Source: Sulfurimonas sp.
Lineage (GTDB): Bacteria > Campylobacterota > Campylobacteria > Campylobacterales > Sulfurimonadaceae
Direction: 5' to 3'
Assembly (NCBI RefSeq): GCF_028714655.1
Contig: NZ_JAQTLY010000002.1
Span: 186,001 to 250,000, forward strand
DNA length: 64,000 bases
In this document: positions 23,726 through 42,227 of the stretch, piece by piece
How the letters are laid out: each line of letters begins with the position of its first letter
How positions within the stretch are numbered: position 1 is the stretch's first letter
Made by a program: the position numbers and the translations under genes
Notes under the pieces: generated by a model
The model's database searches: none
Told to the model about the DNA's origin: nothing
The model's input: the letters and a program-made list of their open reading frames with translations, nothing else

Positions 23726-25633
23726 TTAAACCCTCTTCAAAAAAATAACGCTCAGAGCCGGAAGTGTGACAAGTAGTCTGTTTTTTCTTCCATGATGCTC
23801 TTTTGCTACGGTTTTTATAGGTACTATGTTCGTTTCGCCCCATCCCTCAAACTCTTTTGATTGGGAGTTGAAAATCTCTTTATATATTCCTTTTTGGGAA
23901 ATACCTATGGGATAATTTTCTCTTTGGCAGTCCGAAAAATTGCATATAACTATGATCGGCTCATCTTTACAATCGCCTTTACGGATAAAAGTTATAACAT
24001 TTGCTTCGTAATCCCTCTCGTCTATCCACTCAAAACCAAGCGTGTCTGTATCGAATCTATGAAGAGAAGGCTCCTCTTTATAGAGTTTGTTTAGCTCTTT
24101 GATGAGTTTTTGCACTCCTTTATGCATAGGAAATTCCAAAACATTCCAATCAAGGCTTTTTTCATAGTTCCACTCTGAAAATTGCGCTATTTCACAGCCC
24201 ATAAATAGAAGTTTTTTACCCGGATGAGCTATCATAAAACTGTATAGCGCTCTTAGATTTGCAAATTTTTGATTGTAATCTCCTGCCATTTTATTGATAA
24301 GCGAACCTTTCATATGTACGACTTCATCGTGGCTAAGCGGGAGTATGTAGTTTTCGTTATACATATAGACAAAACTAAATGTAAGTTCATGGTGATGATG
24401 TTTTCGCGCTACGGGATCATTTTTCATATATTTTAGAGTATCGTGCATCCAGCCCATGTTCCACTTAAAACCAAATCCGAGTCCGCCGACATCTACGGGA
24501 GCGCTTACCAGCGGATACGCCGTAGACTCCTCTGCAAACATCATAATATCATCAAAAGCACCATAAACAGAAGTGTTAAGATCCCTTAAAAATTGGATAG
24601 CTCCGAGATTTTCGTTTCCGCCAAATTTATTCGGTATCCATTCGCCCTCTTCTCTCGCGTAGTTTAGATATAGCATTGAAGATACCGCATCGACGCGGAT
24701 ACCGTCAAGATGATACTTCTCTAGCCAAAACATTGCAGAACTTATGAGAAATGATCTTACTTCATCTCTATCGTAGTTAAATATGGCGCTTCCCCACTGC
24801 GGATGATACCCAAGTCTTGGGTCTTTATGCTCATAAAGGCAAGTTCCGTCAAAGTTCATAAGAGCGTGTCCGTCCATGACGAAATGAGACGGCACCCAAT
24901 CCAGAATAACGCCGATACCAGCCTGATGCATAATGTCTACAAACTCCATAAATTCATCCGGATTTCCGTATCTGGCAGTCGGGGCAAAATAACCGCTTAC
25001 CTGATATCCCCAAGAGCCGTCGAATGGGTACTCTGTTATGGGAAGCAGTTCCACATGCGTAAAGTTCATCTCGACTAGATATTTTGAGAGTTCGCGTGCG
25101 GCTTTTGTGTATGTTAAAAATCCACCCTCGTTCGCCCTTTTCCAAGAACCTAAATGAACTTCATAGACGCAAATCGGCGCGTTATGGGAGTTATGCTTTT
25201 TTCGATTATGCATCCAAGATTTATCTTGCCACTTATAAGAGTTGAGTGAGTAGACTTTTGATGCGGAAGCGGGAGCTGTTTCGGCATAAAATGCAAAAGG
25301 GTCCGCTTTGTCGGGATTTGCGTTGTGCTCGTTTGTATGAATATGATATTTGTAGGTCATTCCGACATCGATACCCTCGATAAACCCTTCCCAGATTCCC
25401 GACTCGTCATCCCTTTTTTTTAGGTGATACGAGTTTATATCGTAACCGTTAAAATCTCCTCTTACCGATACATGAGCTGCATTTGGAGCCCAAAGCGCAA
25501 AATAGACGCCTTGTTTGCCGCCACGGTGCATCAAGTGAGCGCCAAAGTGATTGTAAAGCTTTGTATGCTTCCCCTCTCTAAAGAGATAAATATCATATTC
25601 GCTAAATCTGCTTACATCATAAAAAACACTCAT
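23726..25633 (-). CDS. glgB: 1,4-alpha-glucan branching enzyme (GH13)
   Basis: GlgB introduces alpha-1,6 branches into glycogen. An N-terminal CBM48-like domain (about 25-120, HLMHRGGKQGVYFALWAPNA) precedes the GH13 barrel with VELLPITEYPFDGSWGYQVSGYFAPTARYG, the nucleophile region DGIRVDAVSSMLY, the acid MMFAEEST and LSHDEVVHMKGSL. All three catalytic carboxylates are present. Length 635 fits the shorter bacterial branching enzymes. It is last in the minus-strand run GH57-galT-glgA-ROK-glgA-glgB, 9 bases after glgA. Confidence 0.96.
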   Translation of the reverse strand: MSVFYDVSRFSEYDIYLFREGKHTKLYNHFGAHLMHRGGKQGVYFALWAPNAAHVSVRGDFNGYDINSYHLKKRDDESGIWEGFIEGIDVGMTYKYHIHTNEHNANPDKADPFAFYAETAPASASKVYSLNSYKWQDKSWMHNRKKHNSHNAPICVYEVHLGSWKRANEGGFLTYTKAARELSKYLVEMNFTHVELLPITEYPFDGSWGYQVSGYFAPTARYGNPDEFMEFVDIMHQAGIGVILDWVPSHFVMDGHALMNFDGTCLYEHKDPRLGYHPQWGSAIFNYDRDEVRSFLISSAMFWLEKYHLDGIRVDAVSSMLYLNYAREEGEWIPNKFGGNENLGAIQFLRDLNTSVYGAFDDIMMFAEESTAYPLVSAPVDVGGLGFGFKWNMGWMHDTLKYMKNDPVARKHHHHELTFSFVYMYNENYILPLSHDEVVHMKGSLINKMAGDYNQKFANLRALYSFMIAHPGKKLLFMGCEIAQFSEWNYEKSLDWNVLEFPMHKGVQKLIKELNKLYKEEPSLHRFDTDTLGFEWIDERDYEANVITFIRKGDCKDEPIIVICNFSDCQRENYPIGISQKGIYKEIFNSQSKEFEGWGETNIVPIKTVAKEHHGRKNRLLVTLPALSVIFLKRV

Positions 25634-25642: not shown

Positions 25643-27127
25643 TTATTGGAGTTTAGAGACTCTTTTTTTATATATTGCATATCTGTAAACATCGTCGTAT
25701 GATTTTGCGGCATCATCCCATCCAAAGTGCATACTCATCGCTCTTTTTTGCATCTTTTTAAATGCTTTTGGATTGTTGTAGTAAGTTTGGACTGCCCACA
25801 TTATAGTATTATAAAGTGCGTGAGGCGAAGCGTGTTCAAATTTAAAACCGACTCCGCTCTCTGCCGTCTCGTCAAAATTCTCTATCGTATCGTCAAGTCC
25901 CCCTGTTTTGCGAACAATCGGGAGAGTACCGTATGCAAGCGAATATATCTGGTTAAGTCCGCACGGTTCAAAGAGTGATGGCATCAAAAAGAGATCGGAT
26001 CCTGCTTCTATCTTATGTGCCAAATTATCGCTATACCCGACATGGAGGGCAAATTTAGAGCCGTTACGGGAGGCAATATGGCTAAAATAGCCCTCAGCCC
26101 ATTTCTCTCCAGTTCCAAGCATAACTATCTGCACATCATGACCGAGCACCCATTCGATAATCTCTGCTATCAGCTCTATCCCTTTTTGTTTTGCAAATCT
26201 CCCCACAAAACCGATAAGTACGACATCGTCTCTTTGCTCAAGATTGAAATATTTTTGAATATCTCTTTTGCAAAGGAGTTTTCCTTTCATATCTTTAGCA
26301 CTGAATTTTGAAGCGATTTTATCATCGCACTTTGGACTCCACTCAGCATAATCAACTCCGTTTAAAATCCCAAAGAGTTTATACGAATGTGCTCTTATAT
26401 GATTTTCCAAACCAAATCCGAACTCGCTTGTTTTTATCTCGTTTGCATATTTTTTTGAGACTGTCGTTACTGCATCGGCATAAGCAATACCGCCTTTTAA
26501 CATATTGATATACCCAACGCTCTCATACGCTTCTGGATTAAAATGTTCCCATCCACACTCTAAAATATCCATTGCACCTTTAAAAACAGTTCCTTGATGT
26601 TCTAAGTTGTGAAGCGTTAAAACGGTAGCAACATCACCGAAATCGTGCGCAAATCTGCTCTTTGCCAAAAGCGGAACAGCCGCCGTGTGCCAATCGTTTG
26701 CATGGATGATGTCGGGTTTAAAATCTATCATTTTGCAAAGAGAAAAAACAGATTTACTAAAGAAGATAAAGCGGTTGTCGTTATCCGCGAAAGCTTCTCC
26801 GTAATGGTCGTACAATCCGCCTCTTCCGAAAAACTCTTCATAATCTATAAAGTAGACCAAAACATCGCTGTTTGGAAGTTTTGAGCTGTAAACTCCTGCC
26901 CAAAGTTCTCCCATATAGCCCATCGGCACGCCTAAAGAACCCTCTATATGCGTTAGTTTTGCCTTGTCTATCGCATAGTATCTCGGCATAACGACTATGA
27001 CATTGTGTCCCATCTCCCTAAGAGCCTTTGGAAGCGAGAGTGCAACATCGGCTAAACCGCCTGTTTTTGCAAAAGGTGCAACCTCTGAGGCTGCAAATAA
27101 GATATTTAAACTCTTTTTAATCATCAA
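25643..27127 (-). CDS. glgA: Glycogen synthase (GT5), first copy
   Basis: GT5 enzyme that extends alpha-1,4-glucan chains from ADP- or UDP-glucose. Begins LNILFAASEVAPFAKTGGLADV with the donor-binding KTGGL, has DIIHANDWHTAAVPLL, VLIGFVGRFAKQKGIELI, and the C-terminal EPCGLNQIYSLAYGTLPIVRKTGGL with the catalytic glutamate. Length of 494 is normal. It overlaps the ROK gene by 11 bases. A second, diverged synthase is two genes upstream, so the pair may differ in donor or acceptor. Confidence 0.95.
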   Translation of the reverse strand: MMIKKSLNILFAASEVAPFAKTGGLADVALSLPKALREMGHNVIVVMPRYYAIDKAKLTHIEGSLGVPMGYMGELWAGVYSSKLPNSDVLVYFIDYEEFFGRGGLYDHYGEAFADNDNRFIFFSKSVFSLCKMIDFKPDIIHANDWHTAAVPLLAKSRFAHDFGDVATVLTLHNLEHQGTVFKGAMDILECGWEHFNPEAYESVGYINMLKGGIAYADAVTTVSKKYANEIKTSEFGFGLENHIRAHSYKLFGILNGVDYAEWSPKCDDKIASKFSAKDMKGKLLCKRDIQKYFNLEQRDDVVLIGFVGRFAKQKGIELIAEIIEWVLGHDVQIVMLGTGEKWAEGYFSHIASRNGSKFALHVGYSDNLAHKIEAGSDLFLMPSLFEPCGLNQIYSLAYGTLPIVRKTGGLDDTIENFDETAESGVGFKFEHASPHALYNTIMWAVQTYYNNPKAFKKMQKRAMSMHFGWDDAAKSYDDVYRYAIYKKRVSKLQ

Positions 27128-27950
27128 AATCCTTTAGTAGAAGTGCGCCGCTAAGAGAGGCGTTTTGCAGTCTGCTTTTGCAAATCTTTACGCCGTCAAG
27201 ACTATTTGAGAGAGCATAATCTTTGATATTTTTTAATATAAGCTCTTCCAGATAAGGATTTGCTTCTATTATTCCGCCTCCTAAAACCAAAACTTGCGGG
27301 TTGAAAAGTGTGAGCGTTGTTCCTGCGGCAACTAAGAGCGCTTCTTGAAACATCTCTACTATTTCTATCTCGCCTGCACGCTCAAGTTCTTTTAATGTAG
27401 TGCCGCATAACGCTTTTTTATGCTCTATCTGTTTTGCAATGCCCGAACCTGAGGCGTAAAGCTCTAAACAGTTATCACGGGAGCATCCGCATCTAAGGGG
27501 AGTTTTTTTGTAGGGAATATGTCCTATCTCGGTTGCGACATTTTTAAAACCTCTTATAACTCTTCCGCTCTCCACTACTCCAAGACCAAGTCCCGTTCCT
27601 ACATAGAGTGCGCAAATGTTTTTTACTCCAAACTCTTTTGCCTCAGCTAAAATCGCACAATTTAAGTCATTTTCTATTTTAAGCGTCACACGGTATTTTG
27701 ACTCAATCCTCTCTTTTATATTATGCTCATCTATCAAGATATTTGGTGCCGAGATGATTTTGCCGCCCTCTACCTGCCCCGCAAAAGAGATACCGATGGT
27801 TTTTATCTCTCTATATTGCGTCAGCAGAGTCTCTATCCACGCATAAAGCCCAATACCGCCGCTCTTTGCCTCTGCGGCGGCAATGAAATTGTTATTATGC
27901 CAAATTTGCGCTCTTAGATTTGTTCCGCCGGCATCTATTGCAAGATTCAA
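27117..27950 (-). CDS. ROK-family sugar kinase, probable glucokinase
   Basis: Phosphorylates a hexose, most likely glucose freed by the amylase-type enzymes of the cluster. The ATP site reads AIDAGGTNLRAQIW, the sugar and catalytic-Asp region IENDLNCAILAEA, and the ROK zinc block is CGCSRDNCLELYASGSG. No N-terminal helix-turn-helix is present, so it is a kinase rather than a ROK repressor. It overlaps both neighbouring glgA genes, indicating tight coexpression. Glucose specificity is inferred from context. Confidence 0.88.
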   Translation of the reverse strand: MNLAIDAGGTNLRAQIWHNNNFIAAAEAKSGGIGLYAWIETLLTQYREIKTIGISFAGQVEGGKIISAPNILIDEHNIKERIESKYRVTLKIENDLNCAILAEAKEFGVKNICALYVGTGLGLGVVESGRVIRGFKNVATEIGHIPYKKTPLRCGCSRDNCLELYASGSGIAKQIEHKKALCGTTLKELERAGEIEIVEMFQEALLVAAGTTLTLFNPQVLVLGGGIIEANPYLEELILKNIKDYALSNSLDGVKICKSRLQNASLSGALLLKDFDD

Positions 27951-29344
27951 GATAGCAGCTTTTTGTAAAGTTCAAAGTAAGCGGCAGCGCTCTTTTCGAA
28001 GGAGAAATCACACTTCATATTAAAAGATATAAATTCATTAAATCTTTTTTCGTCTTTTTTAAGTTTTAACGCTCTTTTTATAGCCAAAAGAAGTGCTTTT
28101 TTAGTCGGCTGCAAAAAGACGATACCTTTTGCGCATTTTATCTTTTTCTCGTGTACGCTGTCTTTTAGACCGCCCACGCTATGCACAATCGGTATAGTTC
28201 CGTATCTTGCGGCTATCATCTGATTTAGCCCGCAAGGCTCAAAGAGCGATGGCATAAGCAAAAAGTCACCGGAGGCATAAATGCGGTGGGAAAGAGCCTC
28301 GTCATAACCGGATAAAAGCTTAAAATTTTTATATTTTTGTGCATAAGGCTCCAAAGCCTGCTTGTAACCGTCTTCTCCGTTTGCAAGAAGTAAAAAGTTT
28401 ATATCCTCTTTTAAAAAATCATCAAGCGACTCTATGAGGATATCGAACCCTTTTTGATGTACTAAACGACTAATCATTATAAAAAGCGGTTTTTTAACAT
28501 CTTTTAAACCGACCTCTTTTTGAAGCTCTTTTTTGTTTTCATACTTTTTTTGGAGTGTTTCGTAACTGTATGTGTTATAGAGAGCAGTATCGTTTTGAGG
28601 GTTAAAAACGCTCTCGTCTATACCGTTAAGTATACCCGTAAGTTTGGTTTTGTGTGCCTCTAAAAGCCCCTCCAAACCGCAGCCGAACTCTTTTGTCAAT
28701 ATCTCTTTTGCATAGGTCGGACTTACCGTAGTTACGGCATCACCGTAGATAATTCCGGCTTTTAAAAAGTTTACTTTCCCGTAAAACTCCAAAGCATCCA
28801 TATGAAAATATTTATTTTCCAGTCCGAGTCTGCCGAGTGAACTTTTGTCAAAAATACCCTGATATGCCAAGTTGTGGATAGTAAAGAGCGTTTTTATATT
28901 TGATTTTGCTCTTTTTATAAAAAGCGGTATGAGTGCCGTGTGCCAATCGTTTGCATGAATAATATCTGCTTTAAGTATTGTGGCTAACTCTACAACAGCT
29001 GCGCAAAAGATACCGAAACGGATATCGTTGTTTGTGTATTCGCCTTTTTCATCACCGTACATAAATTTTGTAGAGCTTAAAATCGAAGAGTTTATAAAAT
29101 ATGTTTTTACGCTCTGGGTCATTGCTTCGTATATAGCTATTTTATACTCTATGCCGCCTAAGGTAACGCTAAATTTTATACTTGATTTTTGATAAGATTT
29201 TTTATCCATAAAAGCGTAAAGAGGCATAACGCTAAATATCTCTGCATCTTTGCTTAAAGCTTGTGTAAGAGAGTGTCCGACATCCGCCAACCCTCCGCTT
29301 TTTGCATATCCGTAAATCTCACTCGCACAAAAAAGCACTCTCAT
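27947..29344 (-). CDS. glgA: Glycogen synthase-like GT5 enzyme, second copy
   Basis: Second GT5 protein, 465 residues, clearly diverged from the other copy. MRVLFCASEIYGYAKSGGLADVGHSL carries KSGGL, DIIHANDWHTALIPLF is present, and the catalytic block is EPCGLNQMIAARYGTIPIVHSVGGL. All residues usually needed for synthesis are kept. It overlaps galT upstream and the ROK gene downstream by 4 bases each. Two synthases in one operon suggest division of labour, for example priming versus elongation or different nucleotide donors. Confidence 0.94.
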   Translation of the reverse strand: MRVLFCASEIYGYAKSGGLADVGHSLTQALSKDAEIFSVMPLYAFMDKKSYQKSSIKFSVTLGGIEYKIAIYEAMTQSVKTYFINSSILSSTKFMYGDEKGEYTNNDIRFGIFCAAVVELATILKADIIHANDWHTALIPLFIKRAKSNIKTLFTIHNLAYQGIFDKSSLGRLGLENKYFHMDALEFYGKVNFLKAGIIYGDAVTTVSPTYAKEILTKEFGCGLEGLLEAHKTKLTGILNGIDESVFNPQNDTALYNTYSYETLQKKYENKKELQKEVGLKDVKKPLFIMISRLVHQKGFDILIESLDDFLKEDINFLLLANGEDGYKQALEPYAQKYKNFKLLSGYDEALSHRIYASGDFLLMPSLFEPCGLNQMIAARYGTIPIVHSVGGLKDSVHEKKIKCAKGIVFLQPTKKALLLAIKRALKLKKDEKRFNEFISFNMKCDFSFEKSAAAYFELYKKLLS

Positions 29345-30366
29345 TTGTTATCCATTGAGTTAAGCAATGCCGCGCACTCTTCCGGCGCTACGGGATTTAT
29401 CGTCATATTTGTGGCTATCTCAAATCCGCCCAAGTGGTAGATTCTAGGGATTATACGGATGCAAAAACGATAGTTTTTATGAAGATACGGTACATAACTC
29501 TCATTTTCAAAGTTTGTGTTTATCGGCGGAAGAGAAAAGTAGATATTGTAGTCAAAATCATCGAGTTGAGCGCTCAATTTTTCAAATACGCTTTTTATGC
29601 ACTGGCTAAGTGAGACTATGTCGTCCCGTGAACATTTCTCAAGGCTTACGATGTTTTTTTTAGGCGCAATCATAACTTCAAACGGATAGCCGCTGGCATA
29701 AGGACAAAAAGCGGCAAAGTTTCCTTCGTTATAGATGACTCTTTCTTGGGCTTCAATCTCGTTATAAACTATATCTTCGATTTTTCCTCTGCCGTGACGA
29801 TGGTAATATCTCATGTTTTGTTCTAAAAAATTTTGTTCGCTCTGCGGCGTTATAGGAAGAGCGAGTATCTGTGTATGCGGATGATCTTGCGTAGCTCCGG
29901 CATTTGCCCCGCTGTTTTTAAAAATACTAAGATAGATAAGTCTTCTGTCTTTTTTAAGATCATCGATGCGTATAATCATACTTCTTAGCCAATTCTCGAT
30001 ATCGGATACTTCAAGATTTTCTATTCTGCAATCATGACATGGAGAATCAATTAAAATCTCATGCGCACCGACTCCGGGAATATACTCAAAAAGCCCGTCT
30101 CTTAGAGAAATGTCTTCAAGTTCAACTTGTACGGCTTTGTACAGATTTGGAACTACTCTTGTTTTCCAACCGTTGCTATTTGGCTCATTATTTCTTATGG
30201 CATAAAGTTCTTTTGGCGTGAGAGACTCGTTTCCCTCGCAAAACGGACATTTTGTTTTGGAGCCTTTTTGTTTTTGACATTTGGTATGCAGATCCGGTCT
30301 GCGAAGCCTCTCGGGGGCGATTAAGACATACTCGTTGTGAATACGATCCCTTCTTATCTCAGACAT
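29341..30366 (-). CDS. galT: GalT-like hexose-1-phosphate uridylyltransferase
   Basis: HIT-fold nucleotidyltransferase of the GalT family. An N-terminal RRDRIHNEYVLIAPERLRRP, a zinc-type CPFCEGNESLTP, HEILIDSP, and the active-site HPHTQILALP with the nucleotidyl-accepting His are visible. Length 341 fits. No galE, galK or galM is nearby, and all neighbours act on glucans, so the true reaction may be glucose-1-phosphate/nucleotide exchange (ADP-glucose phosphorylase-like) rather than galactose use. It overlaps glgA by 4 and the GH57 gene by 8 bases. Confidence 0.88.
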   Translation of the reverse strand: MSEIRRDRIHNEYVLIAPERLRRPDLHTKCQKQKGSKTKCPFCEGNESLTPKELYAIRNNEPNSNGWKTRVVPNLYKAVQVELEDISLRDGLFEYIPGVGAHEILIDSPCHDCRIENLEVSDIENWLRSMIIRIDDLKKDRRLIYLSIFKNSGANAGATQDHPHTQILALPITPQSEQNFLEQNMRYYHRHGRGKIEDIVYNEIEAQERVIYNEGNFAAFCPYASGYPFEVMIAPKKNIVSLEKCSRDDIVSLSQCIKSVFEKLSAQLDDFDYNIYFSLPPINTNFENESYVPYLHKNYRFCIRIIPRIYHLGGFEIATNMTINPVAPEECAALLNSMDNK

Positions 30367-32392
30367 CGCAAACCTCCAGTGATATGTTTAAATCCAGCGA
30401 ACTCAAAAACGGTATAGAAAAAAGCAGCGATATCTGTTGCGCGGTCAGTTCAAAGCCGCTCTCATTTTGTGAAAGCGTATTTAAGATATAAGCGTACACG
30501 GTGCATTTTTTATCCAAAGAGATTTTTAGAGATTTTTGCGTGTAATCATCTTCTAAAACTATACTCTCTATATCCTTTAAAACGACTCCGCTGCCTAGTG
30601 CTTGAGAATTTATAAGCACTTTATGGTGGTGTGCAAAGTGAAAATTAAACTCTGTGCCGTAGTGAAGTTTATGGGTAAAATCACTCACCGTGCTTAAATC
30701 CAGAGATAAACTGCTTTTGCTAAATCCATACTTTTTAGTAAGAGAGGTATCATATTTTTTATCCAAATATACTCCGCCCTCTCTTTTAAATGTCATTTTC
30801 TCTTCATCAAACTCAAAGGGTTGATTTGCAAAATCGCCCACTTCATTGAAGCTCGCTCTCTTAAAACTGTCAAAAGAGAACTCATCACTGCATATATGAT
30901 CTACAAATGAGTATTTCGGATGCCAATCATAAATAAGCTCATCTTTGAAATTTTCATTAATGGCAACCTCATCGTTATGTATGGTGGCTATCTCATCTTC
31001 GCCGCCGCTCTCTTTATGAATTTTTGGCGTCGGATGTAAAATCTTCTCATGATACGCTTCATGGCGGCGCATCAGTGTATTTTGCCAGTTAAAGAGCTTT
31101 TGGAGTGAGCCAAACTCTATAAGCTGCGCGCCGTATTTTGATGAAAAAACAAGGCTTAAACTCTTGGTTAAAACCTTTAGCTCCTCATACCCGTCTTTGT
31201 CTATATCAAAAAATGAAAAAGCAGGCTTCTCTTTTGCAAGTGACGCTTCTATCTCCAAAAGATACCTATACGCGTTATCCCTGAGATTTGGAAGGTACAA
31301 TCCTCCAAAAACACCATGCCATAAAACATCATTGGTTTGGAGTTTGTAAAGACTCTCAAGAGCATCTTTTTTAAGTCTCTCTTGATGCAGGGAGTGATGC
31401 ATCATTCTTTTATGGATATGGTTGCTCTCACGGTATTTGATAAAAAAGTTTTTCCATATACCGCCTTTGATAAGAGCCACACCCTCTTTTTTAAAGTACT
31501 CTTCCCCCACGCTTTTTTTTAAAGACTCTAACGCTAGATTTTGATGACTTTTTAGGCTCCACTCTCCCATCTCAAAGTATGATGTGTTATTTAGATATGC
31601 CAAACCTTTTGAACGGTTTGTATGAAGATACTCTTTGTAGTGCATTGTAGTAATTCTCTCATCAGCCAAAACTGCCTCTACAAATCTCTCAAGCCACTTT
31701 TTCTCATAAACCCACTCATGTGTTTTTGGCCAAAGTCCAAATTTCTCCATGTCGTCAAATATGACAGCGGCGCTATTATCGCTTTTTGCGCAATTTAAAA
31801 TCGCCTCAATTGAACGCTCAACGCTAAAAAACGGGAGTGCGTATCTAAGAGCTGCAGAGATAGGAAACAGAGCTATTTTCTCTCCGCCCTCCTCGCTCTC
31901 ATAGTATCCATCCATCGCACTGTTATCAAAACCGCTGCTTAAGAAGTGATAATCATCAACCACTACATATTCTAAGCCGCATGCTGCCAAATCAGGTACG
32001 ATTGAGCTTTCCCAAACTCTCTCCGTAAGCCAAGCGCCTCTCGGAGCTGATTTTAGATTTTTCTTAAGATATACGCTAAGTTTATCTATCTGCGCTCTTC
32101 TGTCTTTTGAGCCAATGGCACTTAGTACCGGTTCATAGTACCCTGCACCCACCCACTCTATGGAGCCTTTTTTTGTTAGATACTCCATATCTTGAAATAT
32201 TTTTGGATGTTTTGTTTTTATCTCATTTAAGAGCCATCCGCTTGCATGCACTGCAAATTTAAAATCAGGGTAGTTTCTCATCGTCGCAAAAAAAGGAGCA
32301 TAACACAACTCTATCGCCTCATCTACGGCATCGCCGAAATTATCGACGGGCTGATGCATATGTACGCCAAAGAGTAATTTTACTTTTTTCAT
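30359..32392 (-). CDS. GH57 4-alpha-glucanotransferase-like enzyme
   Basis: Family GH57 with the layout of Thermococcus-type 4-alpha-glucanotransferase: a catalytic (beta/alpha)7 barrel in the first 300 residues, then regions like DUF1925 and DUF1926 (C-terminal beta sandwich from about 400). Conserved blocks include GVHMHQP, VGAGYYEPVL, the nucleophile block WLTERVWE and the acid block FDDMEKFGLWP. It probably rearranges alpha-1,4 chains or releases oligosaccharides from glycogen. It is first in a five-overlap operon ending with glgB. Cytosolic, no signal peptide. Confidence 0.9.
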   Translation of the reverse strand: MKKVKLLFGVHMHQPVDNFGDAVDEAIELCYAPFFATMRNYPDFKFAVHASGWLLNEIKTKHPKIFQDMEYLTKKGSIEWVGAGYYEPVLSAIGSKDRRAQIDKLSVYLKKNLKSAPRGAWLTERVWESSIVPDLAACGLEYVVVDDYHFLSSGFDNSAMDGYYESEEGGEKIALFPISAALRYALPFFSVERSIEAILNCAKSDNSAAVIFDDMEKFGLWPKTHEWVYEKKWLERFVEAVLADERITTMHYKEYLHTNRSKGLAYLNNTSYFEMGEWSLKSHQNLALESLKKSVGEEYFKKEGVALIKGGIWKNFFIKYRESNHIHKRMMHHSLHQERLKKDALESLYKLQTNDVLWHGVFGGLYLPNLRDNAYRYLLEIEASLAKEKPAFSFFDIDKDGYEELKVLTKSLSLVFSSKYGAQLIEFGSLQKLFNWQNTLMRRHEAYHEKILHPTPKIHKESGGEDEIATIHNDEVAINENFKDELIYDWHPKYSFVDHICSDEFSFDSFKRASFNEVGDFANQPFEFDEEKMTFKREGGVYLDKKYDTSLTKKYGFSKSSLSLDLSTVSDFTHKLHYGTEFNFHFAHHHKVLINSQALGSGVVLKDIESIVLEDDYTQKSLKISLDKKCTVYAYILNTLSQNESGFELTAQQISLLFSIPFLSSLDLNISLEVCDV

Positions 32393-33592: not shown

Positions 33593-35623
33593 CTACACAA
33601 ACCATCTATCGCTAAAATCGCTGTCCATATCTATCTCAAGCACTCCAAAACCCGGCAGTGTCTGTATAACGGTACCGCCGCTTGAGAGTTCAAAACGAAA
33701 ATCGAGCTTTTGCTTTTTTATGGAGCTTTTATCTATCCTAATCTCAATTCGATCTTCATACGCAACTTCATAAGTAATATCAGCGTGGCTGCTTAAATAG
33801 TGCTTTTTATCGCAGATATCTATCTCTTCGTTAAAACCGATAGGATCTATGATAAGGCGGAGCATATTGCAGCTCTTCATTATCTGCTCATCTGCATCAA
33901 AAGCAAAGTATATATTTTCATCATCCTGCCCGTACAATATCTTCATAACAGGGCTTTTTGGCATATCCATAGTTGATGAGGTTCTATTTTCGTGTACTAC
34001 GCCGCTGCCTATCCACTCAAAAAACGAACCGTGTGTTCCGTTTATTTGAGGAGATATGTATGATTGCGGTTTTAGTAAAAAATCTACGGAACTTCTGTTT
34101 TGTATAATCGGTTCAAAGAGATCCGATGGAGGAGCTATTTTCATAAGGTTGTATATAGAGATAAGGTGGGATCTAAAAAGTGCGTCAAATTCTAAACCAA
34201 ACTCCGTAAAGTGGTCATCCCCATACCACCAAAACCAATCAGAACACTCGGAGGCTAAAAAATGCTCCGTAATCTTGGCTTTCGTATCATCATCAAGTGA
34301 ATCTTTGTGATGCTCATAATCTCTTTTGGTTATAAATATCATCTCCCAGCCGCGGCTCTTCTCTTTATGCCCTACCCAAGTATTGAACTCTCCGTGTATC
34401 CAGCTGCCTGCATGGAGTTTGCTTAATTTTTTTCTAGGAAGCCTATAAACATCTTGCATATGAAGTATATTTAGCCAAGAGAGAGCAGTTAGGTTTTTGT
34501 AAAGTTCGTCAAAAAAGTCAAAGGCGTTATTGTCATAAAACTCCCAAGCATTCTCACCGTCAAGGATTATAAAAACGGTAGCGTCCTCGTTTTGATCACT
34601 TATCATCCATAAATGAGACACAAAATCTTTGGCAGCTCTTTGTGGTTCCCAAAATTTATATGTAAAACCTATAAGATCGCTTAAGTGATGGTCTCTAAAA
34701 GCTATGCACATATCTTGATACTCATACGGAGTGTAAAGAGATGCTCTGTCTCTTGAATTTATTGAGCGAAAGAGTATCTCTTCATCGGTTGCTATCCATT
34801 TGACTCCGCACTCGCTAAGCAGTGCTACGCTATTCTCATCCACCGCACCCTCGGCAGGCCAAAAACCGTCGGGAAGAAACCCAAAAGTATCCGTAAACAG
34901 CTCTTTGGCTCTTGTGATTTGCAATAGCGCATCATCTTTTAGGCTTAAATGGTATTTTGGGATATTTGTAGAGGGATTTGCGATTTTTGCGCTATTCATA
35001 TCAAGCAGAAGCGGCAGAATCGGGTGATTTAGCGGAGTTGTAGAGATAGAGATAATATCTCTGTTTTTTAACTCTGCATAATAATCAAAAATACCTTTTA
35101 CAAAGTGGGTCAGCTCGCGCAATAAAGAGAGTTTATCTTCGTAGACAAAACCGCTCTCTCTTTTGAGCATCTCTTTTACGACTGTATTGTTTGTTCTAAG
35201 ATAAACACCGCACCATGAGAGCAGAAATAAAATCTCCAAATCAAAAAACTCTTGATTTGTGTAGCTATCTTTTTTGTACAGCTCATCATAATAGGCTATC
35301 TTAGATACCATAGTTTCATAAGGGGTGCTTTTACAGATTTTTATCATCCAGCGATATTCGGTTCTGTTTAGTGAACTTATATCTCTTAGCCAAAGGTTTA
35401 AAAATTTATCGTTATTTTGCGGATTTTCATAGTAGAGTTTCAGTTGTCGTATTAGAGGCGGAGTTATATTAAAAGTAGCCTTAAGACCGCTGTGTCTCGT
35501 TAGCATCCAAGGCATATCATAGTAATCTTTTATAGCATGTAAAAATACCCACGGCATTTGTATAATGCCAAATTCGTCTCGATAATCCGGTTGGTGCATA
35601 TGCCATATAAAACTTAGATTCAC
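33593..35623 (-). CDS. GH57 alpha-amylase / amylopullulanase-like enzyme
   Basis: Second GH57 enzyme, only distantly similar to the first. It starts SFIWHMHQPDYRD, has ISISTTPLNHPILPLL, the nucleophile block GFWPAEGAVDE near 240-250 and the acid block FIILDGENAWEFY. This set resembles amylopullulanase and related alpha-amylases of GH57. The C-terminal 150 residues form a beta-rich accessory region. No signal peptide is present, so it should act on internal glucan. Its start overlaps the end of the nucleotidyltransferase fusion by 4 bases (ATGA), so those two are coupled. Confidence 0.88.
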   Translation of the reverse strand: MNLSFIWHMHQPDYRDEFGIIQMPWVFLHAIKDYYDMPWMLTRHSGLKATFNITPPLIRQLKLYYENPQNNDKFLNLWLRDISSLNRTEYRWMIKICKSTPYETMVSKIAYYDELYKKDSYTNQEFFDLEILFLLSWCGVYLRTNNTVVKEMLKRESGFVYEDKLSLLRELTHFVKGIFDYYAELKNRDIISISTTPLNHPILPLLLDMNSAKIANPSTNIPKYHLSLKDDALLQITRAKELFTDTFGFLPDGFWPAEGAVDENSVALLSECGVKWIATDEEILFRSINSRDRASLYTPYEYQDMCIAFRDHHLSDLIGFTYKFWEPQRAAKDFVSHLWMISDQNEDATVFIILDGENAWEFYDNNAFDFFDELYKNLTALSWLNILHMQDVYRLPRKKLSKLHAGSWIHGEFNTWVGHKEKSRGWEMIFITKRDYEHHKDSLDDDTKAKITEHFLASECSDWFWWYGDDHFTEFGLEFDALFRSHLISIYNLMKIAPPSDLFEPIIQNRSSVDFLLKPQSYISPQINGTHGSFFEWIGSGVVHENRTSSTMDMPKSPVMKILYGQDDENIYFAFDADEQIMKSCNMLRLIIDPIGFNEEIDICDKKHYLSSHADITYEVAYEDRIEIRIDKSSIKKQKLDFRFELSSGGTVIQTLPGFGVLEIDMDSDFSDRWFV

Positions 35624-38127
35624 GCTATATCTTTTGCATAGTTTTGAATTTTCTGGGTATAACTCTCAAGTAAAGCAACTCCGTTCTCCTCGCTGCTTGC
35701 TTGTATGTAGAGATTTAGGTGGTCATTGTACTGATCGGGAATCATCAAAATCCAATCCGTCTCATTTTCCCAAATTTTTACGCCGTCTTGGTTAGATGAC
35801 TTTTTGCCTTTTGCATCTTTTAGAAATTTTCTCATTATTTTGCCTTTTAAAGCCTGCGTGCAATCAATTTTCTCTTGTGCATAGTAAAAACTCTCAATCA
35901 TTTTTGATATCTCTGAGAGTTTTAAGTGGCTACAGCTAAGCATCTCCATAACTTTTAAACTGGCATAAATGGCATCTCTTGATACGCCAAACTCGGTAAA
36001 AGCAAAGTTGCCGTCAACCGTTGCTACCAAAGAGTACTCCCTCATTTGTGCAGCTTTAAAATTGGCATATTTTCCTCTTTGAATATCAAGATTCTCAAAA
36101 CGGATAATATCAGGCGCCCAAGTAGGTAAAAAGACTCTTTTTTTCTCATCATTTGAGTACATATTAAGCAGATGTAAAACTACCAATAGCCCTTTTACCA
36201 TATCCAAAACTTCGCCTTCGTCGGTTACGAAACATATAGTTTGTGCATTTGGATATATCATCAATCCCATATTGTAGTTTAGACTTGATACTATTTTTGA
36301 AATATTTTCATCCGAGCGTTTTTTTAAAGCAGCGAAATTTGACAGTTTATGTTCGTCATAGTAAGCATTTAGCACAATATTTTCGACACCGATATCATTT
36401 AAAATATTTGGAAATATATCCCCCGTTGAGCCGTGCATCAAATCAACCGCAACTTTAAATGTGCCGCACTTTATAATGTTTTGGTTTATTTTGCTCTCTA
36501 TTGCAGATTTGTAGTTAAGGCACTCTTTAAAGTGTATAGTCTCTTTTATCTCTCCGATTTGTGAAAAATCAACCCTTCGGAACTTCTCCGTAAAAAACGC
36601 TTTTTCTATGTTTTTTGCACTGTTTGAGTCGATGCGGATAGATTCTTCGTTAAAAAGAGTAATCTCTGAGTTTGCAGGATTGAAAACATCCTGTTTAAAG
36701 TGTGCACCGCCGGCTAATTTAGGGCTGTTTGCAAGCGTGTAGCGTAAAATGGAGATAGGCGCATTTTTTAGATCCAAAACATCGATTCCGGCAGATAAAA
36801 GTCCTCCTAAAAATGCCCTTTTTAACATTCTGGAACTTTTGTTATAATCCCTCCCTACTACTACTTTTACGCCCATAGGAAGCTGTGCGGCAAAAGCTTC
36901 GGCTAATTTGGTAGCCATTTCGCATGAGAGTTCGACATTGCTCTTGCCCGATACCGTTCCGTTTTCAAAAATGGAGTTTTTATATCTGCTTCCCCATACA
37001 AGATTGTGGCTGACGATTGAAGCCGCTTCTATCTTTTTGTCAGGCCAGATAGTGACATCCTGTTCAAAAGAGGCAAGTTCCCCCACTTCACAACCCTCGG
37101 CAAGAATAAGTCCTGCTTTTGCGGTTACATTTTTATCGATTATGTTATTACTGCATATAACGGCATTATCAAGTTTTACACCGCTTTTGATTTTGACATC
37201 TTCCCAAATGACGCTATTTGAGATACAGCAATTGTTACTTATGGTTACATTGTCCCCGATTACCACATTGTTTAGTTTAACGCTGTCCTTTATTTTTACA
37301 TTTTTTCCAAGGACGACGGTTCCCAAAATTTTGACGGTAGAGCTTAGATTATACTCCTCATCGCTATATAAAACGCCGTCCGCATAATTTTTTATTATGC
37401 CCTCAATCTTAAAATTTACTCTTGAGTTTAAAATATCATCATATACTTCGCGGTAACTCTCCGGATTTCCTACATCTCTCCAGTACCCTTCCAAGTTATA
37501 TCCCATCAAATCAATACCTCTGCTCATCAGCAACGGAAAGAGATTTTTGGCAAAATCAAAATTCTCTCCCTTGGGAATATAGTTTAATATTTCAGGCTCG
37601 ATTATATAGATGCCGGTATTGATAGTGTCGCTAAAGACCTCTCCCCAGCTCGGTTTTTCTAAAAATTTCTCTATAATATTATCTTCATTGGCTATTACCA
37701 CGCCGAATTGAAGCGGATTTTCGACGGATGTCAGACCGATAGAGAGTTTTGAGTTTTTTTGCTTATGAAATTCAAATATTTTTTCAAAATCAAAATCCGT
37801 AACCAAATCACCGCTTATAACTATAAAATTTTCATCTCCGATATACTCGGCGGCAAGTCTAACGGCACCGGCAGTTCCGTAATCGTCATCAGGAACCACA
37901 TAAGTTATTTTTATGCCCAAATCACTGCCGTCACCGAAGTAATTTTGAATAATCTCAGGTTTAAAATAGAGTAAAACTATAAATTCAGAGATGCCTAAAT
38001 CTCTTAACATCATCATAGTGTGTTGCATCATCGGTCTATTTACTATCGGTAACATGGGTTTTGGTCTTGAATGTGTCAAAGGCTGGATTCTTGTTCCGAA
38101 TCCGCCCGCCATAACTACAGCTTTCAT
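35620..38127 (-). CDS. Sugar-phosphate nucleotidyltransferase fused to a degenerate phosphomannomutase-like domain
   Basis: Residues 1-230: nucleotidyltransferase with AVVMAGGFGTRIQPLT, RPKPMLPI and SGDLVTDF. Residues about 250-370: left-handed beta-helix hexapeptide repeats. Residues about 380-835: alpha-D-phosphohexomutase fold, recognisable at GRDYNKSSRMLKRAFLGG (425-442). In the mutase part the phosphoserine loop (TASHNP in active enzymes) reads GAHFKQDVFNP (474-484), and the metal loop (DGDxDR) reads YPNAQTICF (625-633), so mutase activity is not expected. The first domain probably makes NDP-glucose or GDP-mannose. With no glgC here it is a candidate donor supplier for GlgA, with the dead domain as regulator or scaffold. 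Confidence 0.88.
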   Translation of the reverse strand: MKAVVMAGGFGTRIQPLTHSRPKPMLPIVNRPMMQHTMMMLRDLGISEFIVLLYFKPEIIQNYFGDGSDLGIKITYVVPDDDYGTAGAVRLAAEYIGDENFIVISGDLVTDFDFEKIFEFHKQKNSKLSIGLTSVENPLQFGVVIANEDNIIEKFLEKPSWGEVFSDTINTGIYIIEPEILNYIPKGENFDFAKNLFPLLMSRGIDLMGYNLEGYWRDVGNPESYREVYDDILNSRVNFKIEGIIKNYADGVLYSDEEYNLSSTVKILGTVVLGKNVKIKDSVKLNNVVIGDNVTISNNCCISNSVIWEDVKIKSGVKLDNAVICSNNIIDKNVTAKAGLILAEGCEVGELASFEQDVTIWPDKKIEAASIVSHNLVWGSRYKNSIFENGTVSGKSNVELSCEMATKLAEAFAAQLPMGVKVVVGRDYNKSSRMLKRAFLGGLLSAGIDVLDLKNAPISILRYTLANSPKLAGGAHFKQDVFNPANSEITLFNEESIRIDSNSAKNIEKAFFTEKFRRVDFSQIGEIKETIHFKECLNYKSAIESKINQNIIKCGTFKVAVDLMHGSTGDIFPNILNDIGVENIVLNAYYDEHKLSNFAALKKRSDENISKIVSSLNYNMGLMIYPNAQTICFVTDEGEVLDMVKGLLVVLHLLNMYSNDEKKRVFLPTWAPDIIRFENLDIQRGKYANFKAAQMREYSLVATVDGNFAFTEFGVSRDAIYASLKVMEMLSCSHLKLSEISKMIESFYYAQEKIDCTQALKGKIMRKFLKDAKGKKSSNQDGVKIWENETDWILMIPDQYNDHLNLYIQASSEENGVALLESYTQKIQNYAKDIA

Positions 38128-38281: not shown

Positions 38282-39241
38282 TTAATCAAGTAAATTTAGA
38301 GCATCAAGATAGTGTTTCGGCAGCTGATATTTATTTGAGACGACATCTTCTATCTCCATCAAACCGAATTCGCCTTTTTTGTAAACAGCAATTTTATTTG
38401 AATTGTTATTGACAAGCAGGTGATCCACCGCGATAATCGTAAAATCAAACGCCATAAGTCTATCATAAACGGTCGGGTTTCCGCCTCTTTGGATATGACC
38501 GAGTATGCTTACCCTTGTCTCCATACCTATATCATCTTGAAGCCAATTAAAAACTTCAGTTGTTTTTTTGCTACCCTCGGCAACGATGGCTAAGATGTAG
38601 TTTCTGCCGTTTTGCACTTCATCTTTTAATCTTTTTGTAAGTTCTTTCGGCTCAAAGGCAACTTCAGGCACGACGCAAACTTCCGCACCGCTTATCATAG
38701 AAGATACGATAGCCAGATACCCGCAATCCCTGCCCATCACCTCAACCAAAAAAGCGCGGCTAAATGAAGATGCCGTATCTCGAATCTTGTCAAGCGCATC
38801 TCGTATAACATTAAGAGCGGTATCTACGCCTAAACAATAATCCGTTCCGTAAATATCATTATCTATAGTTGAAGGAATTCCGACAAAATTAAGTTCAAAC
38901 TCCGAGCTAAATATTTGCATCGCTCTAAAAGAGCCGTCCCCTCCAAGTACGACAAGCTTTGTTATGCCAAACTCTTTAAGGTTATAGTATGCCTGCATCC
39001 TGTAGCTATGTTCAAAAAATCTCTTAGACCTAGAAGAGCGGATGATGGTTCCTCCATTATGAAGTATTCCCGATACATCCGAATGAGTCGCTTTTTTGAT
39101 TTTTTTATCTATCAATCCCTCTAATCCGTCATAGATTAGATAAGGAGTAGAGCCTTTTTTGTAAACATAATCTACAAACTTTTTTATAGCCGGATTCATA
39201 CCGGGTGCATCGCCGCCTGAACACATAATTGCAAATGACAT
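38282..39241 (-). CDS. pfkA: ATP-dependent 6-phosphofructokinase
   Basis: Phosphorylates fructose 6-phosphate, committing carbon to glycolysis. SFAIMCSGGDAPGMN, VVLGGDGSFRAM and PSTIDNDIYGTDYCLGVDTAL are present. The Gly in GGDGS and the small residue in PSTID point to ATP rather than pyrophosphate as donor. VEVMGRDCGYLA and ILGHIQRGGNPTVYDR complete the active site. Many Campylobacterota, including Campylobacter jejuni, lack Pfk. Its place in the glucan cluster fits catabolism of stored glycogen. Confidence 0.93.
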   Translation of the reverse strand: MSFAIMCSGGDAPGMNPAIKKFVDYVYKKGSTPYLIYDGLEGLIDKKIKKATHSDVSGILHNGGTIIRSSRSKRFFEHSYRMQAYYNLKEFGITKLVVLGGDGSFRAMQIFSSEFELNFVGIPSTIDNDIYGTDYCLGVDTALNVIRDALDKIRDTASSFSRAFLVEVMGRDCGYLAIVSSMISGAEVCVVPEVAFEPKELTKRLKDEVQNGRNYILAIVAEGSKKTTEVFNWLQDDIGMETRVSILGHIQRGGNPTVYDRLMAFDFTIIAVDHLLVNNNSNKIAVYKKGEFGLMEIEDVVSNKYQLPKHYLDALNLLD

Positions 39242-39287: not shown

Positions 39288-39370
39288 GAGATCCTGAATC
39301 AAGTTCAGGATGACGAAAGCTCAAGAATCTCGTCACTCCAAATTTGATTTAGAATCTAATTTTTTAGTTA
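39288..39370 (-). repeat. Dispersed palindromic repeat upstream of pfkA
   Basis: AGATCCTGAATCAAGTTCAG followed by CGTCACTCCAAATTTGATTTAGAATCTA and TTTTTTAGTTAT, the reverse complement of the 3.3 and 11.5 kb elements including their outer AACTAAAAAATTAG flank. The left arm carries substitutions that weaken pairing. Confidence 0.8.
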
Positions 39371-39413: not shown

Positions 39414-41057
39414 CTAACGGTTAAACATTCTTTCATAATACTCAATCGCCAAGCGACCTGAATCAAACGCAACCTCTACATCATTCATAGCACTCTTCAT
39501 AATAGCTACCCACTCTTTTGGTTTGTCATAATAGGTAGGAATAACGCTATTTTCCAAAATATCCATCATATTTTTATTGTCAATCCTATCTTGCTCTACG
39601 ATAGACAATCTATAATCAAGAGGAGGAATGGTAAAAGCGTTTTTACCGTTTTTTGCAAATTCAGGATTCCAACCGTCATCTATGGAAAAATGGATTGAAC
39701 CGTTCATGCTTGCACTCATTCCGCTTGTTCCGCTTGCTTCGCGAGTAATTCTAGGGGTATTTAGCCAAATATCGCTCCCCTGTTTTAGAAGTTTTGAGAG
39801 AGTAAGCTCATATCCTATGAGAACTGCTATATTTTTAAATCTATGACTTAACTGTATCAGTTCATTAAACATCTCGATAGCTCCGTAATCTGCAGGATAC
39901 GGTTTCCCCGCCCATATAATCTGAACGGGTCTTTGAGTATCGGTTATTAGTTTTACAAATCTATCATAGTCATATTTAAGCAGACCGGGTCTTTTATACT
40001 CCGCAAATCTTCTTGCCCAAACGATTGTTAAAACTTCAGGATCAAACATCTTTCCCGTTTGATTTGCAACAACATGAAAAAGTATCTTCTTTAGATGCTT
40101 TTTTCTTGACAAAAGTTCATAATCCTCATGTTCGTCAAGTGCGCGAATAAGGGTTTTATCCGTCCAATACTTCTTGTTTTGAGCATTTGTAATGGAGATA
40201 ATTTCACATCTCCCTTCAACACCCGCCCACATCTCGTTTGCAATCATTCCATGTATTTTTGATACTGCATTTGCTATTTTAGCACTTCTTAGTGCGCCCA
40301 CCGTAAGGCTGAAATTATCATTGTTTTCATAGCCGCTTATAGCTCTTGCTTGTACCAAATCCAAGTTGCCGAAAAATCCCATTTCATGCAAAAAATTTAT
40401 ATTGTGCATCTCATTTCCCGCAGCTTCGGGTGTATGCGTCGTAAAGACGACATGTTTTTTTACTTCACTCATATCTTTAAATCTATCGTAAAGTTCATAA
40501 ACAAGCGGAAGTGCATGTCCTTCATTCATGTGGTAGATATCTATTTTATGATTGATGGCTTGGAGCATCTTTGCTCCGCCGATGCCTAAGACTATCTCTT
40601 GAGCTACCCTTGTTCTTTCGTTTGAGTCATATAGCTTATGTGTAATAGTTCGAGAGAGGTAGTCGTTCTCATCCGTATCGGTCGAGAGTAAAATCATAGG
40701 AGCGGTACCAAAAACATCGCAGCGAAGCAAAAAGCCTTTTACTACTACATCTACATTATTGATTTTTACCGTTACTTTTATATCAAGCTCTTCTAAAAAG
40801 TAGTAGACTTTTCTTGTGTAGTGCGGTTTTAGCGTTCTATCCTCATTGCGTGACTGGTCATAGTAGCCAAAACTCCATAAAATCCCTACTCCAACCACAT
40901 TTTGCTTGAGATCGTATACGCTTCTCATATGAGAACCGGCTAAAAAACCGAGTCCTCCCGAGTATATTTTAAGCGACTGATCTATTGCAAACTCCATCGA
41001 AAAGTAGGCAACACTTTTTGTAAACTTCTCACTTATATCGTACGAAAACAGATTCAT
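39414..41057 (-). CDS. GT35 alpha-glucan phosphorylase homologue lacking the PLP lysine
   Basis: Short-type (547 residues) glycogen/starch phosphorylase homologue: VAYFSMEFAI, IYSGGLGFLAGSH, IYHMNEGHA, VVFTTHTPEAAGN, WARRFAEYKR and EASGTSGM are all where expected. Active phosphorylases have Lys right after this last Met, bound to PLP; here the residue is Ser448 (codon AGT at 39714-39716), two base changes from either lysine codon. The Arg/Lys phosphate pocket looks kept. It may be inactive, PLP-free, or have a changed reaction. It stands between gap and pfkA, with repeat-filled gaps on both sides. Confidence 0.85.
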   Translation of the reverse strand: MNLFSYDISEKFTKSVAYFSMEFAIDQSLKIYSGGLGFLAGSHMRSVYDLKQNVVGVGILWSFGYYDQSRNEDRTLKPHYTRKVYYFLEELDIKVTVKINNVDVVVKGFLLRCDVFGTAPMILLSTDTDENDYLSRTITHKLYDSNERTRVAQEIVLGIGGAKMLQAINHKIDIYHMNEGHALPLVYELYDRFKDMSEVKKHVVFTTHTPEAAGNEMHNINFLHEMGFFGNLDLVQARAISGYENNDNFSLTVGALRSAKIANAVSKIHGMIANEMWAGVEGRCEIISITNAQNKKYWTDKTLIRALDEHEDYELLSRKKHLKKILFHVVANQTGKMFDPEVLTIVWARRFAEYKRPGLLKYDYDRFVKLITDTQRPVQIIWAGKPYPADYGAIEMFNELIQLSHRFKNIAVLIGYELTLSKLLKQGSDIWLNTPRITREASGTSGMSASMNGSIHFSIDDGWNPEFAKNGKNAFTIPPLDYRLSIVEQDRIDNKNMMDILENSVIPTYYDKPKEWVAIMKSAMNDVEVAFDSGRLAIEYYERMFNR

Positions 41058-41080: not shown

Positions 41081-41214
41081 TAGATTGCTACAAAGTTATT
41101 TTGCATAGATTGCTTCGCTTTGCTCGCAATGACAGTGACAAAGAGATTTTATGGATTGTTTCGCTCTGTTCTCAACGATTGTCATTGCGAGGAGGAACGA
41201 CGAAGCAATCTCGG
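41081..41214. repeat. GATTGC/GCAATGAC-type repeat cluster
   Basis: Contains AGATTGCTTCGCTTTGCTCG with CAATGAC (41107-41133) and, in the opposite orientation, GTCATTGCGAGGAGGAACGA with CGAAGCAATCT (41180-41212). Similar sequence is common between genes in many bacteria. Short open frames over it are not genes. It fills the gap between gap and the GT35 gene. Confidence 0.8.
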
Positions 41215-41231: not shown

Positions 41232-42227
41232 CTACCTATTCCCTACAAATACGCACATATCAACCAAGCGGCTGCTGTATCCCCATTCGTTATCATACCA
41301 TGCCAAAACTTTTACACATCGCTTATCCACGACGCTTGTCATATCAGGGATGTAAGTTGAACTGTAAGTAGAGCCTATAAAATCGCTTGAGACTCTCTTC
41401 TCATTATCTACTTCTAAAAGACCTCTAAATGCTCCCTCCGAAGCTTTTGTAAATGCCTCGTTAATCTCATCTTTTGTCACATCTTTGTTTAAGTTTAGAG
41501 TCAAATCCACAACTGAAACATCGGGCGTCGGAACACGCATCGCATAACCGTTTAGTTTGCCTTGAAGTTGCGGCATAACCAAACCTATGGCTTTTGCCGC
41601 ACCGGTCGTAGTAGGAATCATATTTATAGCTGCTGCACGCGCTCTGCGCATATCAGAGCTGTGTTTTACATCTAAAATATTTTGGTCGTTCGTATATGAG
41701 TGGATAGTAGTCATAAGACCGTTTTGGATTCCAAATGCATCGTCTAAAACTTTGCAAAGAGGTGCGAGAGCGTTTGTCGTACAGCTTGCATTTGAGATGA
41801 TTGATTCGCCTTTGTAGCCGTCCGTATTGATATTTAAAACATAAGTAGGAGTGTCATCTTTTGCAGGCGCGCTCATGACAACTTTTTTTACGCCGTTTTT
41901 TAGATATTTTTGCGCTTTTTGCGTTGTTAAAAATGAACCGGTACACTCAACGACAAGCTCAGCGCCAACGGAACCGAAATCCAACTCGTCAAGAGAACGG
42001 GTAGCAAAGAGTGCTACTTTTTTACCGCCGATTTCTATAGTTTTATCATCAATTATCTTTGCATCTATGCCTTTATGCACGCTGTCAAATTTAAAAAGAT
42101 ACTCAAGCATCTCCGGAGTCGCCGTCGTGTTAATCGCTACCAGCTCAATATCGTCTCTTGAAGCAATTATCTTTGCTACTATCATACCTATTCTACCCGT
42201 CCCGTTTATCGCCGCTTTTACTGCCAT
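41232..42227 (-). CDS. gap: Glyceraldehyde-3-phosphate dehydrogenase
   Basis: Oxidises glyceraldehyde 3-phosphate, or runs in reverse for gluconeogenesis. AINGTGRIGMIVAKI opens the Rossmann domain. The catalytic Cys lies in SNASCTTNALAPL, and HSYTNDQNILD, RRARAAAINMIPTTTGAAKA, and WYDNEWGYSSRLVDM are typical. At the end of the second strand the usual NAD-selecting Asp (AINDL) is replaced, giving AINTTATPEML, which may loosen or switch cofactor use toward NADP. Length 331 is standard. It is the first minus-strand gene of the glucan region, with its own promoter. Confidence 0.95.
   Translation of the reverse strand: MAVKAAINGTGRIGMIVAKIIASRDDIELVAINTTATPEMLEYLFKFDSVHKGIDAKIIDDKTIEIGGKKVALFATRSLDELDFGSVGAELVVECTGSFLTTQKAQKYLKNGVKKVVMSAPAKDDTPTYVLNINTDGYKGESIISNASCTTNALAPLCKVLDDAFGIQNGLMTTIHSYTNDQNILDVKHSSDMRRARAAAINMIPTTTGAAKAIGLVMPQLQGKLNGYAMRVPTPDVSVVDLTLNLNKDVTKDEINEAFTKASEGAFRGLLEVDNEKRVSSDFIGSTYSSTYIPDMTSVVDKRCVKVLAWYDNEWGYSSRLVDMCVFVGNR

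Follow-up and report, generated by a model that had tools for sequence, protein, structure and literature searches.

To our knowledge, glycogen phosphorylase is a textbook case of an unusual role of PLP and is treated as PLP-requiring throughout family GT35; in characterised phosphorylases the cofactor is considered essential. The described systems closest to the locus reported here are the TIGR02094 alpha-glucan family phosphorylases (GT35), such as Segatella copri GlgP (9l6i) and the Thermococcales maltodextrin phosphorylase, with which it shares the sequence family, the fold, the catalytic and phosphate-clamp residues, and a glycogen gene context. These relatives have the PLP-binding lysine (Lys-type) and many are 700–880 aa long, whereas the proteins considered here (the short clade) lack it, are about 550 aa long, and have many near-invariant residues of their own. 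The canonical phosphorylases (TIGR02093; rabbit GP, E. coli GlgP and MalP) resemble the short enzyme in the GT-B fold and the active-site layout (Z about 29–31), but are about 20% identical to it, and their EASGTGNMK corresponds to EASGTSGM(S/T) in the short clade. The GT5 glycogen synthase GlgA has a similar GT-B fold (Z 30.8), an R...K phosphate clamp at the same spacing, and a Glu at the same place, but its profile does not match the short enzyme. The GT4 trehalose phosphorylases, which are PLP-independent, are also retaining GT-B phosphorylases; they belong to a different family with a different substrate, and are likened here as a mechanistic analogy. Both GT4 and GT35 are listed as retaining phosphorylase families with a front-face mechanism (PMC8950772).

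The lysine site in the window

The window is the whole stretch of 64,000 nucleotides of Sulfurimonas sp. DNA that was analysed. The gene under study and the sites discussed below are as follows.

39414..41057, minus strand: GT35-family protein of 547 aa (short) that lacks the PLP lysine; ATG start; TIGR02094 425.2 bits (curated cut-off 191.7), PF00343 55.6 bits (cut-off 27)
40947..40970, minus strand: K30-IYSGGLG glycine loop, residues 30–37; K30 in 96/97 short-clade members, Pro in 26/32 Lys-types (Lys in 1, Arg in 1)
39990..40013, minus strand: RRFAEYKR, residues 349–356, with R350 and K355 (both in 129/129 sequences)
39717..39740, minus strand: EASGTSGM motif, residues 440–447, with the catalytic-site Glu440 and the GTSG phosphate-binding turn; E440, G443, T444, S445, and G446 present in all 97 short and all 32 Lys-type proteins
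39714..39716, minus strand: AGT codon of Ser448, where Lys-type enzymes have the PLP-binding lysine; the short clade has Thr in 70 members, Ser in 25, Ala in 2, and Lys in none, against Lys in 32/32 other TIGR02094 proteins

Both profile scores place the protein in the GT35 sequence family. The motif of the ORF reads NTPRITREASGTSGMSASMNG, within the longer stretch ...NTPRITREASGTSGMSASMNGSIHFSIDDGW..., and residue 448 is a Ser encoded by AGT at 39716..39714. PLP-dependent glycogen phosphorylases (EC 2.4.1.1) have the PLP-binding lysine after E-A-S-G-T-x-x-x, and this lysine is missing here. In a region aligned without gaps, the residue matching S448 is Lys in all 32 Lys-type TIGR02094 proteins and likewise in two canonical glycogen phosphorylases, whose motif reads GTGNMK, and we take the site to be equivalent by position to K680 of rabbit GP. 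A preliminary description of this DNA had reported EASGTSGM followed by Ser448 (AGT) in place of the lysine, and the reading of the ORF and the gap-free alignment both bear this out; AGT is indeed two changes away from AAA or AAG. It had also held that a single sequencing error could not explain the Ser, and we agree, because this site is Thr (ACT) in the nearest orthologue (96% identical) and Ser in the next (90%), and the clade is without any Lys. An error or a strain-specific change at residue 448 is thus ruled out, and the lysine-lacking site of this ORF is real.

A discrete subfamily in three phyla

The short clade is a discrete subfamily of TIGR02094, with members of ~550 aa in Campylobacterota, Bacteroidota, and Verrucomicrobiota. 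The residues around the site were taken from 80 loci on named genome contigs, together with loci of further genomes from these three phyla; clustering at 85% identity gave 97 non-redundant members, and 32 other TIGR02094 proteins served as the comparison set. Residue 448 was Thr in 70 members, Ser in 25, and Ala in two, i.e., never the Lys that occupies the site in 32 of the 32 others. The absence of Lys is therefore a trait of the whole subfamily and not of one strain. To the question raised earlier, whether Ser is conserved among homologues, the answer is divided: Lys is consistently absent, but Ser is the minority residue beside Thr. A role of Ser/Thr448 as a covalent catalyst is unlikely, since two members have Ala. 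The BLAST scores against the query also fall into two groups separated by a gap: every match of at least 560 bits lacked Lys and every match of 358 bits or less had it, except for a single truncated copy with internal stops, whose motif was unreadable.

In the tree, the short clade forms one side of a branch with an SH-aLRT support of 100; its stem measures 1.34 changes per column. A quick tree nested it inside the Lys-types, but a tree with all the Lys-types together was equally good (p-AU 0.546); the nesting was therefore dropped, and we claim a single clade rather than an exact placement. Since Lys is the residue found in the canonical outgroup, its loss rather than its gain is the simpler history, with the polarity inferred. 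No relative was found in the viral contigs searched, and phage records gave only more distant matches (28–30% identity). Plasmid-borne members occur in Runella rosea (WP_114070759.1) and Pontibacter actiniarum (WP_025603925.1); both have Thr at the site, and both are named “alpha-glucan family phosphorylase” in RefSeq. On the Runella rosea plasmid, a pyridoxamine 5'-phosphate oxidase family gene (L278:10648-11088) follows the short-clade gene, a single case that is possibly coincidental. The label “alpha-glucan family phosphorylase” (TIGR02094) in the three phyla, Akkermansiaceae included, thus conveys only a putative cofactor and activity.

The other mapped catalytic residues are retained. 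R350, K355, E440, H208, and N291, i.e., the Arg...Lys phosphate clamp and the catalytic Glu, His, and Asn of EC 2.4.1.1 enzymes, were present in 129 of 129 sequences (97 short and 32 Lys-type), in accordance with the earlier remark that neighbouring motifs, including RRFAEYKR, are kept. Y354, W298, and the GTSG turn were invariant in both groups, and Y416 nearly so. We take R350 and K355 to be R569 and K574 of GP, which hold the substrate phosphate, and the further equivalents are presumably E440 = E672, H208 = H377, N291 = N484, W298 = W491, and Y416 = Y648. Other positions, among them S42, Q52, W61, Y66, Q293, N294, D300, V346-W347, P386-Y387, E417, S421, K425, and R439, are near-invariant in the short clade yet different in the Lys-types, and K30, K319, and K425 are new near-invariant lysines. 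Because so many positions are near-invariant in the clade and different in the Lys-types, the surroundings of the active site are, as judged from the alignment, rebuilt rather than decaying. The dN/dS values among Sulfurimonas-type orthologues (0.03–0.08) indicate strong purifying selection, and the short enzyme is probably a maintained, active enzyme.

The AlphaFold model of the short enzyme (pLDDT 88.8) has the GT-B phosphorylase fold. Its best PDB match was the Segatella copri glycogen phosphorylase 9l6i (Z 33.8 over 535 residues; Foldseek E 9e-43), followed by E. coli GlgA with ADP (3cop, Z 30.8) and MalP (Z 30.6); these Z values come from the short-enzyme model alone, and the GlgA match is of limited weight. 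In the sequence search against solved structures, the best match was again 9l6i, a Lys-type protein (241.8 bits), and no short-clade structure was found. Among the GT5 glycogen synthase profiles, TIGR02095 gave no match and PF08323 reached 21.2 bits against a cut-off of 22.7; the GT4 Pfam domains gave no match.

Gene neighbourhood and distribution among genomes

In the window, the short gene lies among genes for glycogen metabolism and glycolysis.

41232..42227, minus strand: glyceraldehyde-3-phosphate dehydrogenase, conserved operon neighbour (PF02800, PF00044)
38282..39241, minus strand: 6-phosphofructokinase, conserved operon neighbour (PF00365)
35620..38127, minus strand: sugar nucleotidyltransferase-phosphoglucomutase fusion (PF00483 and PGM_PMM domains); family at 33 loci
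33593..35623, minus strand: GH57 glycoside hydrolase/glucanotransferase (PF03065); family at 33 loci
30359..32392, minus strand: GH57 alpha-amylase/4-alpha-glucanotransferase (PF09095, PF03065)
29341..30366, minus strand: GalT-like hexose-1-phosphate uridylyltransferase homologue (PF01087, PF02744); 26 loci
27947..29344, minus strand: glycogen synthase GlgA (GT5), first copy (TIGR02095, 510.9 bits)
27117..27950, minus strand: ROK-family sugar kinase, likely glucokinase (PF00480)
25643..27127, minus strand: glycogen synthase GlgA (GT5), second copy (TIGR02095, 532.1 bits)
23726..25633, minus strand: glycogen branching enzyme GlgB (TIGR01515, 832.9 bits)

The conserved Campylobacterota glycogen-glycolysis operon has the order GAPDH-PGI-SHORT-PGK-PFK-NTPT/PGM-GH57-GH57-GalT-GlgA-ROK-GlgA-GlgB. 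In four Campylobacterota genomes with the Lys-type only, the Lys-type enzyme is encoded in the same operon, adjoining PGM-PGI or before NTPT/PGM-GH57-GH57-GalT-ROK-GlgA, and in three genomes with both types the gene order is Lys-type, PGM, PGI, short, NTPT/PGM, GH57. Because the two types occupy the same slot, this arrangement suggests, short of proof, that both serve one pathway step, and it speaks for glucose-1-phosphate as the product. The neighbourhoods of the short gene in Bacteroidota and Verrucomicrobiota were mostly uninformative.

Several neighbours deserve a separate remark. The nucleotidyltransferase-phosphoglucomutase fusion, operonic with glycogen genes at its 33 loci, scores below the cut-off for E. 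coli-type GlgC. The GalT-like homologue, a regular member of the Campylobacterota operon, may act as a phosphorylase of ADP-glucose or UDP-glucose. Inside the glycogen operon, the two GH57 genes are separated by the gene for an ORF6N-domain protein whose C-terminus shows a weak VPA1262-like match (32491-33381, minus strand); its family occurs at only three loci of the set, and it looks like a recent insertion. Intergenic repeats of the ATTGCTTCGCTTTGCTCGCAATGAC and CCTGAATCAAGTTCAGGATGACG types flank the phosphorylase gene (41100-41220 and 39290-39340), and the second type occurs in tandem at 11552-11588. Elsewhere in the window, positions 59759-59918 hold a perfect two-copy tandem repeat of 79 bp with an inverted-repeat core (CCTCGTTCCACCTCTCCCGAGGTGGAATGC), and related repeats lie nearby (60460-60588).

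The ORF at 39414-41057 is the single phosphorylase homologue in the genome from which the window comes; no second one was found there, which settles a check proposed in the preliminary description. All PF00343 matches in the 37 Bacteroidota and 23 Verrucomicrobiota carriers examined were short-clade genes, i.e., the short gene was the only GT35 homologue in 60 of 60. Lys-type TIGR02094 genes were found in 0/37 carriers and 192/308 non-carriers in Bacteroidota (Fisher p 6e-15) and in 0/23 carriers and 71/217 non-carriers in Verrucomicrobiota (p 4e-4), both tests ignoring kinship; these counts were tallied by hand from match listings. Outside the sample of 60, two genomes (G393 and G398) carry the short gene plus a longer or canonical phosphorylase, and so does the Campylobacterota carrier G404. 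Among the 44 Campylobacterota genomes with a match, 28 had the short type only, 10 had both types, five had the Lys-type only, and one had a broken Lys-type copy. A Lys-type TIGR02094 gene with several stop codons (G168:C1:456702-458231) is apparently decaying.

Regarding the synthesis of glycogen, 26 of the 60 carriers had a full GT5 GlgA that scored above the cut-off of its family, and three more had a GlgA-like protein below it. GT3 was found in seven of the remaining 31, and 23 of the 24 carriers with neither GT5 nor GT3 (20 Verrucomicrobiota and four Bacteroidota) had a GT4 GlgA-like protein, which was 77–100% identical to that of locus L260 in Verrucomicrobiota and 41–42% identical in Bacteroidota. 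A branching-enzyme homologue was present in 36 of 38 genomes checked. We had strongly considered the short enzyme as the missing glycogen synthase of these 24 carriers, and the GT4 enzyme in 23 of them weakened this idea. Because the type of synthase varies (GT5, GT3, or GT4) while the short gene stays, a degradative role of the short enzyme is favoured. The GT4 GlgA-like protein (L260:2681-3979, minus strand; L100:10793-12118, plus strand) is itself a likely unrecognised glycogen synthase, and a relative directly follows the short gene in three Cytophagales-type loci (L100, L102, and L107). Many of the Bacteroidota genomes checked for GlgA (e.g., G455, G399, and G481) also have free-standing proteins of ~270 aa whose match to GlgA is confined to its N-terminal half.

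The reaction of the short enzyme

The explanation that we consider best, and whose chances we would put at about even on the comparative evidence, is that the short enzyme, being of GT35 descent, is an active retaining GT-B glucosyltransferase and would serve its lineage as alpha-glucan (glycogen) phosphorylase without Lys-linked PLP. This reading is favoured by the absence of Lys in all 97 members while the other mapped catalytic residues are invariant, the many clade-specific near-invariant positions, the low dN/dS, the status of the gene as the only GT35 homologue in all 60 Bacteroidota and Verrucomicrobiota carriers, where the Lys-type is absent, the conserved glycogen operon, in which the Lys-type takes the same slot in Campylobacterota lacking the short gene, and the fold, which is closest to the Segatella copri glycogen phosphorylase. 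Nearly all carriers checked have some synthase, so the degradative slot is left for the short enzyme. However, both types coexist in 10 of the 44 Campylobacterota genomes, sometimes in one operon, and may therefore not do the same thing; the long stem of the clade and its many changed active-site neighbours could mean a new reaction; and the fold likeness to GlgA equals that to MalP, so that structure alone leaves room for a nucleotide-sugar enzyme. Of the two alternatives offered in the preliminary description, a PLP-independent glucan enzyme in a glycogen cluster and a dead regulatory paralogue, the former is favoured, with the amendment that the loss of Lys belongs to the whole subfamily.

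In the proposed phosphorolysis without Lys-linked PLP, R350, K355, and the glycine loop would position inorganic phosphate for an attack on C1 of the terminal glucosyl residue from the same face in an SNi-like manner, giving glucose-1-phosphate, which could pass to the adjacent phosphoglucomutase, PGI, and PFK. The reaction would either do without the 5'-phosphate of PLP or have another anion in its place in the GTSG site, with GT4 trehalose phosphorylase as a precedent. The wider claim, which falls a little short of an even prospect, is that an ancient and widespread GT35 branch degrades glycogen with no PLP, using inorganic phosphate (perhaps with a second anion or a nucleotide) instead, and that many Bacteroidota, Verrucomicrobiota, and Campylobacterota have no other phosphorylase. 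Storage sugar may thus be broken down without the usual cofactor in these bacteria, where the short clade sits in the place of the normal enzyme, and a conserved subfamily without the cofactor lysine is a natural test of the chemical need for PLP. A bolder version of the wider claim would make the short clade a relic of GT35 from before the capture of PLP; the tree is compatible with this, but midpoint rooting is against it. Among open-licence papers, we found none describing a Lys-less GT35 clade.

We consider it unlikely that the enzyme depends on NDP-glucose, with the PLP pocket returned to a nucleotide, and either elongates glucan from ADP- or UDP-glucose or runs in reverse, making NDP-glucose for the GalT-like neighbour. 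A review proposes that PLP entered a proto-GT35 NDP-sugar enzyme and replaced a nucleoside monophosphate (PMC11046441), an idea that speaks for NDP-glucose dependence and on which the Lys-less clade bears. The fit of the model to GlgA with ADP, which is as good as that to MalP, the positive charge added by the clade-specific K30 and R439, and the GalT-like gene in the operon agree with it, but nearly all carriers have another glycogen synthase (GT5, GT3, or GT4) and the window has two, TIGR02095 gives no match and PF08323 only one below the cut-off, and Lys-type phosphorylases replace the short enzyme in the same operon slot.

PLP might still be the cofactor, either through non-covalent binding at the conserved site or through a Schiff base with another lysine (e.g., the clade-invariant K425 or K30), which we regard as improbable. 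The GP residues that line the PLP ring and phosphate (W491, Y648, K574, and the GTG turn) are kept as W298, Y416, K355, and GTSG, the near-invariant K30, K319, and K425 are new in the clade, and GP remains active when its Schiff base is reduced, so the covalent link is not catalytic. However, one member has Arg in place of K30, and two Lys-type relatives already have Lys or Arg there, which suits a need for charge better than a Schiff base; K425, to judge from an alignment to GP and GlgA, would sit on a helix at the end remote from the PLP site.

A different retaining reaction on alpha-glucans, such as transglucosylation, hydrolysis, or phosphorolysis of another glucoside, would account for the large re-specialisation of the active site and for the Lys-type phosphorylase that coexists in one operon in some genomes, but seems distinctly improbable given that the phosphate-binding R350, K355, and glycine loop are invariant and that the short enzyme stands alone in Bacteroidota and Verrucomicrobiota. 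Finally, although characterised phosphorylases are considered to need the residue that is lost here, it is very improbable that the short enzyme is a catalytically dead paralogue with a regulatory or scaffold role, because the short gene is the only GT35 homologue in the genome of the window and in the 60 carriers of two other phyla, its other mapped catalytic residues are invariant in the 97 members, and it is under strong purifying selection.
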